Source of the DNA: Myxococcales bacterium
GTDB taxonomy: Bacteria; Myxococcota; UBA727; VGSZ01
DNA length: 62,675 nucleotides
NCBI GenBank assembly: GCA_023248635.1
Contig: JAHFED010000009.1
Coordinates: forward strand, 69,408 to 132,082
Direction: 5' to 3'
Every line of letters begins with the position of its first letter. Within the stretch, counting starts at the first letter, position 1. Made by a program: the position numbers and the translations under genes. The notes under the pieces are model-generated. The model had not been told where the DNA came from, did not search any database, and worked only from the letters and a program-made list of their open reading frames with translations. Positions 22,341 through 54,595 of this stretch are shown here, in pieces.

Positions 22341-23141
22341 TCAGCGACCGTGGAAGGTCGGCCGGCGTTTTTCGCCGAAGGCGGCCAGCGCTTCTTTGCG
22401 GTCCTCGGTGGCCAAGGTGAGCTCGTAACAGCGCGCTTCGAGCAGCAAGCCTTCGGAGATCCCCGTCGACAAACCTCCGTCGATGGCCGCCTTGGCTGCC
22501 TCCACCGCCAGGGGTGCACAGCGCGCGATCTCGGTGGCCAAGGCGAGCGCCTGGTCGAGGGCAGCGCCGGCGTCGACGACGTGGTTGGCCAGGCCCACCT
22601 GCAGGGCGTCGTCGGCGCTCAATCGACGCGCGGTGAAAATGAGCTCCTTGGCCTTGGCGGGTCCAATGAGCCGCGGCAGGCGCTGGGTGCCGCCGGCGCC
22701 GGGGATGATGCCCAGCGCGCACTCGGTGAGGCCGACGACCGCACCTCGAGCCAGGACGCGCAGATCGCAGGCCAACGCGAGCTCGCAGCCCCCCCCGAAG
22801 GCGACGCCGTCGACGGCGGCGATGGTGGGCTGGGGCAGGCGTTCCACGAGGTCCATGATCCCGCGGATGCGCCTCAAGAAGGCCCGGACCTCGGTGGGGT
22901 TCATGGTTGCGCGCTCCTTGAGGTCGGCGCCGGCACAAAAAGCTTTGGCGTTGCCGGCGAGGATCACCGCGCGCACATCGCGGCGCACAGCGACCCTCTC
23001 GATCTCCACCCACAGCGCCTCGAGGAGCCCGCGCGAGAGCGCGTTGTGGGCCTCGGGCCGGTTCAGGCGAAGCACCAAGGCAAGCCCCTGGTCGTCGAGG
23101 TTCTTTTCTTCAATTTGCACGAGTGCGGCGGGAGCAGACAT
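22341..23141 (-). CDS. enoyl-CoA hydratase
   Basis: Crotonase-family protein of 266 residues with the complete catalytic set: FCAGADLKE for the oxyanion hole, GGGCELALACD with the first Glu, and LTECALGIIPGAGGTQ with the second Glu. It is therefore expected to hydrate 2-enoyl-CoA to 3-hydroxyacyl-CoA, unlike the one-Glu paralogue at 16792. The ATG at 23141 lies 14 bases beyond the stop codon of a displaced reading frame (23156-23215), showing that it was once directly preceded by the small gene at 23322-23666. Today two copies of a 62-bp palindromic repeat separate them. It converges on the DUF3105 gene with a 23-bp gap. Confidence 0.88.
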   Translation of the reverse strand: MSAPAALVQIEEKNLDDQGLALVLRLNRPEAHNALSRGLLEALWVEIERVAVRRDVRAVILAGNAKAFCAGADLKERATMNPTEVRAFLRRIRGIMDLVERLPQPTIAAVDGVAFGGGCELALACDLRVLARGAVVGLTECALGIIPGAGGTQRLPRLIGPAKAKELIFTARRLSADDALQVGLANHVVDAGAALDQALALATEIARCAPLAVEAAKAAIDGGLSTGISEGLLLEARCYELTLATEDRKEALAAFGEKRRPTFHGR

Positions 23142-23155
23142 GGGCCCCAGTAGCG

Positions 23156-23215
23156 CTACTTCTTCAGCCGCGCCAGCCGCGCCTGGCTCCCATCGCCCGG
23201 CGATCCCTCGCCGAC
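23156..23215 (-). pseudogene. displaced 3' end of the small gene at 23322-23666
   Basis: Reading leftwards from the repeat, one frame gives V-G-E-G-S-P-G-D-G-S-Q-A-R-L-A-R-L-K-K and a TAG at 23156-23158. If the 124 bases from 23216 to 23339 are removed, this frame joins without shift to ...EELFAQF of the upstream gene, giving a protein of 128 residues whose stop would lie 14 bases before the hydratase start. It is most simply explained as the original C-terminus cut off by the repeat insertion. Confidence 0.7.
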
Positions 23216-23339
23216 GAATTCACCGACAGCGCTGCGCGTGTCGGTGAATTGTTACAGGTTCATCGCCTGGCGGCGATGAATTCACCGACAGCGCTGCGCG
23301 TGTCGGTGAATTGTTACAGGTTCATCGCCTGGCGGCGAT
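23216..23339. repeat. perfect tandem duplication of a 62-bp palindromic unit
   Basis: Two identical 62-bp units (23216-23277 and 23278-23339), each beginning with GAATTC. Each unit contains two hairpins: arms AATTCACCGACA and TGTCGGTGAATT (23217-23228 and 23239-23250, loop of 10), and arms TTCATCGCC and GGCGATGAA around TGGC. A related single copy in the opposite orientation lies at 48519-48587. The pair interrupts the 3' end of the gene at 23322 and supplies its present stop codon. The two-hairpin layout resembles REP/BIME elements. Confidence 0.85.
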
Positions 23340-23666
23340 GAACTGCGCAAAGAGCTCCTCATCGGTCGGCGGCGGGGAAGCCGCCGACGTCCTGCTCGGC
23401 CCGGGCGCCGGCGAGAACTTCTCGAGCACGACGTCAGCGTCGACGGCGGCGACGGCGGCGGCGAAGAGCTCGGCGTCGCTCTTGACCACGCGGGCGGGGG
23501 GCACGGGAAGTCGAGACGACGACGACGCCGACGGCTCCTTGCGCAGCACCTGCTTGGGAAAAGGCTCCTTCTTGGTCGGCGCCTTGCGGGATGGCGACGA
23601 CGACGACGACGCTGCGGGCTTCGCTTCCTGCTTCCATTTCTTCAGCTGGTCTTCGAGCGTGCCCAC
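23322..23666 (-). CDS. small unknown protein with C-terminus altered by repeat insertion
   Basis: Hydrophilic protein of 114 residues from a GTG start. It begins MGTLEDQLKKWKQ, then has a Ser/Pro/Lys-rich disordered stretch and two related motifs, SDAELFAAAVAAV and TDEELFAQFIAAR. Such (D/E)ELF motifs also occur in the region before the Smr domain of bacterial Smr proteins, but no Smr domain is present. The last residues IAARR and the TGA stop come from the 62-bp repeat; without the insertion the protein would end in VGEGSPG...RLKK (see 23156-23215). Probably once co-transcribed with the downstream hydratase and with the small gene at 23706. Function unknown. Confidence 0.6.
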   Translation of the reverse strand: MGTLEDQLKKWKQEAKPAASSSSSPSRKAPTKKEPFPKQVLRKEPSASSSSRLPVPPARVVKSDAELFAAAVAAVDADVVLEKFSPAPGPSRTSAASPPPTDEELFAQFIAARR

Positions 23667-37613: not shown

Positions 37614-37844
37614 ATGGGCATCCTGATCGGTTTGGGCATCGTCTGCGCCGTCGTCGTCGTCTGGGCCTTCGTGCGCGGTTTTCGCGACGGTCCGGGCTCG
37701 ATCACCTCTCCACCCCGGCGCGAGTACAACTGCAGCTGCTGCGGTTGCAGCGTGTCGACGGAGTACAACCTCGACGGCCAATGCGAGGGCTGCTGGGATC
37801 GCCACTTCAGCAACGCTTCAGAAATGTTGGACCGCGAGGACTGA
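37614..37844 (+). CDS. small membrane protein with Cys-rich tail
   Basis: Protein of 76 residues: one N-terminal transmembrane helix (GILIGLGIVCAVVVVWAFV), a short linker and a cytoplasmic-type Cys cluster, CSCCGC...GQCEGCW, that could form a zinc finger. No family was recognised. It follows the chalcone isomerase-like gene closely. Its stop codon is the first base triplet of the 218-bp structured repeat. Confidence 0.6.
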   Translation: MGILIGLGIVCAVVVVWAFVRGFRDGPGSITSPPRREYNCSCCGCSVSTEYNLDGQCEGCWDRHFSNASEMLDRED

Positions 37845-38059
37845 TCCCCGATCTCGCTGAACTTCGACCGCGGAGCGGTCTCGTTCATCTCCTTCGGGGA
37901 TGCTCCTCTGGGAGGTCTGGTGCAGACCTCCCAGAGCGCCGGCGGAGCCGGACGCGGGGCCCCCACCAACTCCGCGTTCCGCGGGCGCGCTTCACGCGCA
38001 TCATCCCGCGTCTTTCCCATCTCGGAACGCGGTCGAACATCAAGCGGACGCGGGATGAG
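37842..38059. repeat. 218-bp structured repeat, copy 1
   Basis: Nearly identical to 54379-54595, same orientation. It starts at the TGA stop of the preceding gene (TGATCCCCGA) and ends GCGGGATGAG. Stems: ATCCCCGA (37844-37851) with TCGGGGAT (37894-37901); 14-bp arms 37906-37919 with 37923-37936; CCGCGTTCCG (37972-37981) with CGGAACGCGG (38023-38032); CATCCCGCGTC (38002-38012) with GACGCGGGATG (38047-38057). The last two stems interleave, as in a pseudoknot. Confidence 0.85.
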
Positions 38060-48518: not shown

Positions 48519-48587
48519 GAATTCATCGCCGCCAGGCCATGAACCCGTAGACAACGCAGCGAGAGCGCTTCGCGAGTCGGTGAATTC
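48519..48587. repeat. single, diverged copy of the 62-bp palindromic unit
   Basis: GAATTCATCGCCGCCAGGC...GTCGGTGAATTC, the same family as 23216-23339 in reverse orientation. It lies in the gap between the S41 protease gene and the FHA-TPR gene and touches neither. Confidence 0.75.
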
Positions 48588-52185: not shown

Positions 52186-54381
52186 ATGCCCATCACCTCC
52201 TCCGTTCGCGATCTCACCAAGGCCCTGCTGGCACAGCCCAAGCTGACCCGCGTCGACGTCGAGCCACTGCTCGCCCGCACGATGAGCGATGGCAAGCTCA
52301 GCAGCGCCGAGCGCAAGCAGATCCAGACGGTCATCGACAAGTTCTCCAGCCAGGGCGACTCCGCCGACGCCGTGAACCACCTCAAGGGATTCATGGGCAT
52401 CAAGGGCGACTCGCTGCGCGCCCTGGTGCACACCTCCGAAGCCAACGACGGCGTCATCGACGCAGCCGAAGCGCGCAAGATTCTCGACGGCCTGGGCACC
52501 CAGAGCGCGAGCAATGGCAAGGCCTCGCTGCAGGCCATCCTCATCGGCAGCAAGCTCACGCCCGAAGCCAAGGCCGTCCTCAGCGGCGACGTGGGCGGCG
52601 GCGGCGGCGCGGGCGCGCTCGTCTCCCTCGGCTTGCCCAAGCTCGATGGCATCGACTACCAGCTGGCGGCCGGTGGCTATTTGACCTCGGGGAAAGCGGT
52701 CTCCTTCGACGCCGCTGGCGCCCTCGATCTCTACCGGGGCGCCGAAGCGCTCATCGCAGCCCCGGGCACGCCCTTGGCCGGACTGTCGACGGCCCAAAAG
52801 ACCGGGATGCTCTCCTTCCTCGACAAGCAGTTCGCCGCCGGCAAAGACACCCACACCCTGCCTGAGGTGTCGACGCAGCGCATCCGTTCGGCCGCAGCGA
52901 CGACGCTGCTCTGTCTGATCGAGGGCGCCAAGCCCGCCGACGGGGCGCTCAAGGGCGACGCCATCAAGCTCTATCTGGCCCAGGCGAAGTCCGAGCCCCT
53001 GCACGGGTTGCGCGCCTCGATGTACTTCAACCTCGACCGCCTCAAGAACGTGCTCGACCCGGCGCAAACGAAGCTGCTGGCAGATCTGAAGCCCCTCGTG
53101 GTCCCCGAGAAGCCGGCCTACGACACCTGGTTCAAGGACAATGGCAAGCGCGCGATCAACATCGAGCACTACGCTCACGATGATTGTTGGACCAACGGCG
53201 TCGACCCCGTCGCACAATACAAAGCGATGGGCTTCACCTTGGTGGACTCCAAGCCCAACGCGAAGCCACCAAGCTGGATCCTCGAGAAGACCAACAACGG
53301 CGCCCCCGGTGGCCCGGTCAGCGCCCGCGTCGAGGTCAAGCGCACTCACGACGGTATTTTCCAGAAAATGGATGATCCCAAGACGAACGTCGTATTGTAC
53401 ACTGGTCACTCCAACCTTGGCGGCAACGTCTCTGAAGAGCTGCGCCTGGGGCCGGAAGAGAAGTCGTCGAAGCTCATCCTGCTGGCGATGTGCCGCGGCA
53501 AGCAAAACATGGCCGAGGTCGCCAACAAGTACCCCAGCTCGCACTTCATCACGACGGACCAGCCCAGCTACTTCAGCTCCGTCATGCCCATCGCGATGAA
53601 CGTCGTCGACAGCGCCCTCAACCTGCGCGACTTCGACGGCATGGCGAAGAGCGCACCTCCCATCAGCGACGCCGGCGGCGGGAAGAACTATTTCTACCCC
53701 AACGAAGAGCGGCGCTACGCCTACTACGACGTCGACAAGGACGGCCTCGTCGATGGCAAGGGTGCCAACGTCGATCGCCTCTTCAACATCTCCCTGCGTC
53801 CACCCGAGACCCGCCGCACCGACGGCGTCGTGCGCCCCAACGCGCTCAACGCCCGTGATATTGATGCCACCTGGGTCGACCATGCGACGTCGTTTTTGAA
53901 CACCATTACGAGCTACCACGTCGATCATGGCGGCAATACGTCGAAGTTCGCCGCCAAGGACATGGACAACTGGAAACCCGCTGGATTCTTCGATGGCCCA
54001 GTGACCGAGAAGGTGCGCTTGTCCAAGAACGCTGACGGCACTGTCGGCGTCGCTGTCAACAAGGGTCTGAGCGATCAGTCGTGGGCCGTCGTCGGCACCA
54101 TTGTCCAATATGAGGCCTGCAAGCAGGAACTCATGCAGCGCAATGGAGGCAAGCTGACCAAGGAGGACGAAGGACGCGCGATGTTGTTCGCCGGCGAATA
54201 TTTGTCATACATGTATTGTTCGCTCGACGAAGCCGAAAAAGGCATCGCTGCCATCACCAAGGACTCGACCTTCTTCAAGGGTACGAGCTACCCGGACCTC
54301 GAGAAGGCCGTTGGCGCCGACGACCATGGCTACGCCACTGATGTCCAGATGAAGGCCCTGCTCAAGCTGCGGAACATCTGA
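52186..54381 (+). CDS. large protein with possible clan CD (caspase/gingipain-like) peptidase domain and calcium-type motifs
   Basis: Protein of 731 residues with no signal peptide. The N-terminal 140 residues are helical and acidic, with an EF-hand-like half (EANDGVIDAAEARKIL). A central region (about 370-475) has two hydrophobic strands ending in His408 (NVVLYTGHSN) and Cys436 (KLILLAMCRGK), 28 residues apart, the arrangement of clan CD cysteine peptidases (caspase, gingipain, separase). An Asp-rich motif DVDKDGLVD (515-523) fits a calcium loop. The rest is unrecognised. Function is inferred from pattern only. The stop codon starts the second copy of the 217-bp repeat. It converges on the serpin gene. 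Confidence 0.5.
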   Translation: MPITSSVRDLTKALLAQPKLTRVDVEPLLARTMSDGKLSSAERKQIQTVIDKFSSQGDSADAVNHLKGFMGIKGDSLRALVHTSEANDGVIDAAEARKILDGLGTQSASNGKASLQAILIGSKLTPEAKAVLSGDVGGGGGAGALVSLGLPKLDGIDYQLAAGGYLTSGKAVSFDAAGALDLYRGAEALIAAPGTPLAGLSTAQKTGMLSFLDKQFAAGKDTHTLPEVSTQRIRSAAATTLLCLIEGAKPADGALKGDAIKLYLAQAKSEPLHGLRASMYFNLDRLKNVLDPAQTKLLADLKPLVVPEKPAYDTWFKDNGKRAINIEHYAHDDCWTNGVDPVAQYKAMGFTLVDSKPNAKPPSWILEKTNNGAPGGPVSARVEVKRTHDGIFQKMDDPKTNVVLYTGHSNLGGNVSEELRLGPEEKSSKLILLAMCRGKQNMAEVANKYPSSHFITTDQPSYFSSVMPIAMNVVDSALNLRDFDGMAKSAPPISDAGGGKNYFYPNEERRYAYYDVDKDGLVDGKGANVDRLFNISLRPPETRRTDGVVRPNALNARDIDATWVDHATSFLNTITSYHVDHGGNTSKFAAKDMDNWKPAGFFDGPVTEKVRLSKNADGTVGVAVNKGLSDQSWAVVGTIVQYEACKQELMQRNGGKLTKEDEGRAMLFAGEYLSYMYCSLDEAEKGIAAITKDSTFFKGTSYPDLEKAVGADDHGYATDVQMKALLKLRNI

Positions 54382-54595
54382 TCCCCGATCTCGCTGAACT
54401 TCGACCGCGGAGCGGTCTCGTTCATCGCCGTCGGGGATGCTCTTCTGGGAGGTCTGGTGCAGACCTCCCCCCACGCCGGCGGGGCCGGACGCGGGCCCCC
54501 ACCAACTCCGCGTTCCGCGGGCGCGCTTCACGCGCATCATCCCGCGTCCTTCCCAACTCGGAACGCGGTCGAACATCAAGCGGACGCGGGATGAG
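54379..54595. repeat. 217-bp structured repeat, copy 2
   Basis: Same orientation and nearly the same sequence as 37842-38059, again beginning at a gene's TGA. The interleaved stems are kept: CCGCGTTCCG (54508-54517) with CGGAACGCGG (54559-54568), and CATCCCGCGTC (54538-54548) with GACGCGGGATG (54583-54593). The second stem is shorter than in copy 1 because the sequence after CAGACCTCC has changed. Confidence 0.85.

Follow-up and report, generated by a model that had tools for sequence, protein, structure and literature searches.

In a bacterium of the order Myxococcales, a small gene carries two tandem copies of a palindromic element that its orthologues lack. The gene lies in the window, the whole 62,675-nucleotide stretch of DNA that was analysed. 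We favor, at a probability of roughly 0.8, the explanation that a small palindromic element, non-autonomous and built as a double hairpin of 63 bp from modules A and B, inserted in this gene after recent genome-wide multiplication. On our best reading of the comparisons described below, it would be a REP-like element that behaves like the Rickettsia palindromic elements (RPEs).

An insertion at the 3′ end of a small gene

As now read, the host gene (23322–23666, minus strand) encodes 114 amino acids. Its codon-usage score is positive, a Pfam search gave no match, and the reading frame terminates with IAARR-stop within the repeat. A sequence-only reading of this DNA had proposed that the element landed in the gene and replaced its C-terminus, and that removal of exactly 124 bases would restore the frame to a stop at 23156. 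Joining the flanks confirmed this arithmetic, as excision of 124 bp fuses ...EELFAQF to VGEGSPGDGSQARLARLKK-stop, with the stop codon at 23156–23158; the hydratase start at 23141 lies 14 bases away. This severed ancestral 3′ end (23156–23215, minus strand) is now out of frame with the gene, and the downstream enoyl-CoA hydratase/isomerase gene (22341–23141, minus strand) is intact.

The host gene was compared with its orthologues in two congeneric genomes, the nearest sister G001 (DEQLFAEF-VGGVVHKS-stop) and G002 (DEELFRSF-VGDARPT...). F-V-G is uninterrupted in both, and neither protein ends in IAARR-stop. Across the junction, the joined window DNA matched G001 at 12/12 bases (AGTTCGTCGGCG) and G002 over 11 consecutive bases. 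The uninterrupted F-V-G supports both an insertion here and the loss of the former C-terminus, and places the insertion site between the F and V codons. Similarity after EELFAQF, on which the earlier proposal also leaned, consists of V-G and a few bases at the junction; beyond V-G all three species differ, so that the exact ancestral ending is less certain. The same divergence suggests that loss of the tail cost little. Among all element sites, the window site alone has an empty counterpart at the DNA level.

Anatomy of the window pair

The two 62-nt units (23219–23280 and 23281–23342, plus strand) are 97% identical in the register found automatically and identical over TTCACC...GATGAA. They correspond to the 124-bp repeat placed earlier at 23216–23339; the coordinates have slid by 3, and the two placements are equivalent because GAA flanks both ends (23216–23218 at the left junction, paired with 23340–23342). 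Each unit begins with hairpin A (23219–23248 and 23281–23310), laid out as TTCACCGACA-N10-TGTCGGTGAA with a one-base bulge in the stem, followed by a connector (23249–23257 and 23311–23319) and hairpin B (23258–23280 and 23320–23342; GTTCATCGCCTGGCGGCGATGAA). Read on the minus strand, the second copy of hairpin B supplies IAARR-stop to the host gene. The hairpin A pattern occurred in 0/100 dinucleotide shuffles of the window, and the window copy folds as single-stranded DNA with z = −7.9 relative to shuffles; for both strands of the family unit and of the window copy, z ranged from −7.5 to −7.9.

The connector is TTGTTACAG in both window copies, one C short of the family consensus TTGTCTACAG, and this deletion breaks the complementary GTAG. 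Within the sample of arrays described below, the string GTTACAG is unique to these two copies, GTCTACAG being found elsewhere, and both copies also have a GCG loop variant. Since the private 1-bp deletion is common to both units, the pair arose in place by local duplication after the deletion. A decayed solo B module (48519–48549, minus strand) is the second copy of the family in the window. The window also contains long direct repeats of about 220 bp (37841–38059 and 54378–54595), 93–98% identical and 16.5 kb apart.

A modular family that multiplied recently

The genome from which the window derives (G000) is a 6.53-Mb draft in 135 contigs with 97% completeness. The sequence-only reading had called for a search of the genome for further copies and for empty sites, and both were found: a pattern search of one strand matched A 180 times and B 149 times, at about a hundred places, and the window junction is empty in G001 and G002. 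A sample of about 70 arrays contained 109 A+B units, of which 89 were 63 bp in length, 17 were 62 bp, two were 64 bp and one was 61 bp. The family unit is a 30-bp module A with a bulged stem and a 33-bp hairpin module B that meet at AATT, and the 62-bp length in the window reflects its private deletion. Thus, the earlier description of tandem palindromic units in a gene, with the capacity to duplicate in tandem, stands, whereas the proposed 62-bp mobile unit gives way to a modular one of 63 bp.

A third module, C (AATTCTCTGCCCTCAGGCCGGGCGGCC, 27 bp), is also joined at AATT, and both orientations of A relative to B were found. Single units made up 44 of the 70 sampled arrays, and the exact consensus unit was present at 29 sampled loci. 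Units differed by 2.2 edits within arrays versus 3.3 between arrays, a value as low in 0/2000 permutations, and private variants common to the units of one array were seen in other arrays as well as in the window. In the consensus connector, CTAC (GTAG on the complementary strand) lies two bases from hairpin A; positions 36–38 vary in up to 7/58 loci. Most arrays are intergenic. Four contigs (C4, C21, C101 and C132) end within arrays, making tandem copy numbers near contig ends unreliable. Other palindromic families were noticed in the same genome at loci L091–L150: GTTCAAGACGCTGGCGCGTCTTGAAC and AAGTGCTTCCTGCTTTG..GCCGTTGGCACGGC..

Copies in G001 were few and diverged (one by pattern, four by BLAST), and none were found in G002, in the other relatives searched, or in the viruses, plasmids and named GTDB genomes searched. 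The difference between approximately 180 A and 149 B matches in G000, one to four copies in G001 and none in G002 indicates that the burst was recent and lineage-specific. In the B stem of G001, a C-to-G change is compensated by a G-to-C change, in support of selection on the hairpin.

Inspection of the flanks revealed AA/TT (the slash marks the insertion point) at 50/79 loci, while the frequency of AATT is just 0.62 per kb. The short target previously suggested from a join at TTC is to be corrected to an AA/TT-like site. In the window the flank is GAA/CT, and G001 has GAACT at the same place. The GAA on both sides is predicted equally by a 3-bp duplication and by a GAA/CT target without duplication, in which case the target and the end of the element would overlap by chance.

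Copies in other genes

The 63-bp unit lacks stop codons in three of its six frames. The earlier claim that the element brings its own stop is correct for the frame used in the window (FIAARR-stop), where it truncates rather than extends the protein, but this property depends on frame. In-frame inserts were compared with orthologues in G001–G003 for three genes. An EPSP-synthase-like gene (L104) contains an in-frame insert of 21 residues that is missing from three relatives, a Ser/Thr kinase (L016) has an in-frame copy directly past its membrane helix, and in a MerR-like regulator (L137) modules A-A-B-C-B are all in frame. Outside this three-gene comparison, modules are in an open frame in a second Ser/Thr kinase (L125), as is a solo B in a transglycosylase (L147), and modules also close the C-terminal tails of a transporter (L113) and of a VTT-domain protein (L148). 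Reading frames that span nine other arrays (L003, L014, L098, L127, L135, L136, L138, L139 and L142) were excluded, since their real start is probably downstream of the array. Predicted insert peptides include VGELSTGSSPGGDEF. The EPSP-synthase-like gene (L104:1155-2522) also has an altered GNSGT-type motif (GGSAT) and an extra unexplained stretch of 16 residues missing from relatives.

The lengths of all three modules (30, 33 and 27 bp) are multiples of three, which would occur by accident with a chance of 1 in 27; we consider this suggestive only. A more tentative proposal, which we hold at well under even odds, is that these lineage-specific hairpin modules, each with open frames, are AATT-joined building blocks moved by an enzyme other than a RAYT, and that they add peptides such as EFTDSASRVGELSTGSSPGGD to the proteins of a free-living bacterium.

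Proposed mechanism and alternative explanations

In our model, one copy would have entered the small gene at an AA/YT site, between its F and V codons, and one C would then have been lost from the connector of the inserted copy. The resulting 62-bp unit would next have duplicated in tandem. In the given orientation and frame the insert reads IAARR-stop, such that the protein would have lost its old 19-residue tail; the downstream hydratase gene is untouched. By analogy with REPs, the element probably moves as a folded single strand with an enzyme acting in trans. Because its length is divisible by three and three of its frames are open, the unit may be tolerated by the host where it inserts.

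The candidate enzymes bear on a related explanation, that the element is a true GTAG-type member of the REP/REPIN-RAYT system, a REP doublet whose dedicated HUH transposase either decayed later or is absent from the draft assembly. High copy number, the bulged hairpin and the GTAG that, in most copies, adjoins hairpin A on the opposite strand all fit this explanation. So does a RAYT-derived gene (L103; G000:C9:359456-360406, minus strand) whose stop codon is followed, after about 17 bp, by a solo B module, a striking position that may be due to chance. However, this protein, which shares 80% identity with its G001 orthologue and has at its C-terminus a DnaA-like helix-turn-helix that scores below the Pfam cut-off, reads KSEVRLV in place of the HUH motif, and HUH is also lost from the orthologues in G001 and G003. 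A search of G000 for PF01797 (Y1_Tnp), at 97% completeness, gave no match, nor was an intact single-strand transposase found in that genome. Moreover, the GTAG varies among copies, and in those of the window it is disrupted. We therefore regard membership as rather unlikely, and an active RAYT was rejected as the mover. A DDE_Tnp_1 insertion sequence was likewise rejected as autonomous parent, since module ends flank neither of its two matches; examination of these matches revealed no terminal repeats common to the element and a resident insertion sequence, as a classical MITE would have. Between neighbouring arrays, a search for a transposase turned up ordinary genes only.

Two further explanations were weighed. 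Retention of the hairpins for a function between genes, as transcription terminators, mRNA stabilisers or protein-binding sites, would account for their strength and for the mostly intergenic arrays. We consider it improbable, as several copies are within reading frames, the sister species almost lack the element, no T-run follows the hairpins, and an Rfam search yielded sub-threshold chance hits and no family. Convergent, divergent and tandem gene pairs flank the intergenic arrays in the ratio 14:13:23, 3′ ends are not enriched, and a terminator role was rejected for want of this gene-end bias. Alternatively, slippage and gene conversion from older repeats, or assembly artefacts, could mimic transposition; local tandem growth is real and several contigs end in arrays. 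Yet the insertions in conserved genes are clean and missing from orthologues, exact consensus copies are present at 29 loci with unrelated flanks, and the window array is only 124 bp with unique flanks, making this explanation very hard to credit. Insertion of a non-autonomous palindromic element accordingly remains our preferred reading.

Comparison with known systems

Palindromic insertions that preserve the reading frame have been known chiefly in Rickettsia and Wolbachia, in which they are linked with reduced genomes. The present burst is recent, took place in a 6.5-Mb myxococcal genome, and comes with comparable sister genomes and about a hundred mapped insertions. The system thus lends itself to asking which proteins can accommodate an extra 21 residues, in what ways modules are combined, and what mobilises hairpins where no RAYT works. 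Palindromic elements themselves are already known; the interesting part is what moves this one and how proteins take up its modules.

RPEs are short palindromic repeats of about 105–146 bp in rickettsial genomes (PMC2229807, PMC10969869). In common with RPEs, the element is present in protein-coding genes as an in-frame extra peptide and also between genes, and like them has no known transposase (PMC2229807, PMC10969869); comparison of L104, L016 and L137 with G001–G003 places such palindromes in conserved protein genes here. In contrast, the unit is 63 bp in length, modular (A 30, B 33 and C 27 bp), often tandem and mostly intergenic, and its length and its large-genomed myxococcal host set it apart from the rickettsial family.

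REPs are mobilised by TnpA-REP (PMC8266576), and REPs inside reading frames and stop codons derived from REPs have been described (PMC3733652). The element resembles REP, BIME and REPIN-RAYT systems in its more than 100 hairpins (180 A matches to a short, dispersed, imperfect palindrome), bulged stem, GTAG beside the hairpin in most copies and mosaic or tandem arrays (PMC8266576, PMC3733652, PMC3116915), and in that some copies are within reading frames or provide stop codons. It differs in that no catalytically intact RAYT, with HUH and the Y1 tyrosine, was found in G000, in its AATT joins, in its two different hairpins in fixed order and in the loss of GTAG from the window copies. With PARCELs it has in common tandem palindromic DNA that is translated as repeats (PMC2996958). 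However, a PARCEL is an amphipathic domain of 25 residues in a membrane-targeted reading frame (PMC2996958), whereas the elements described here are dispersed, mostly intergenic hairpins.
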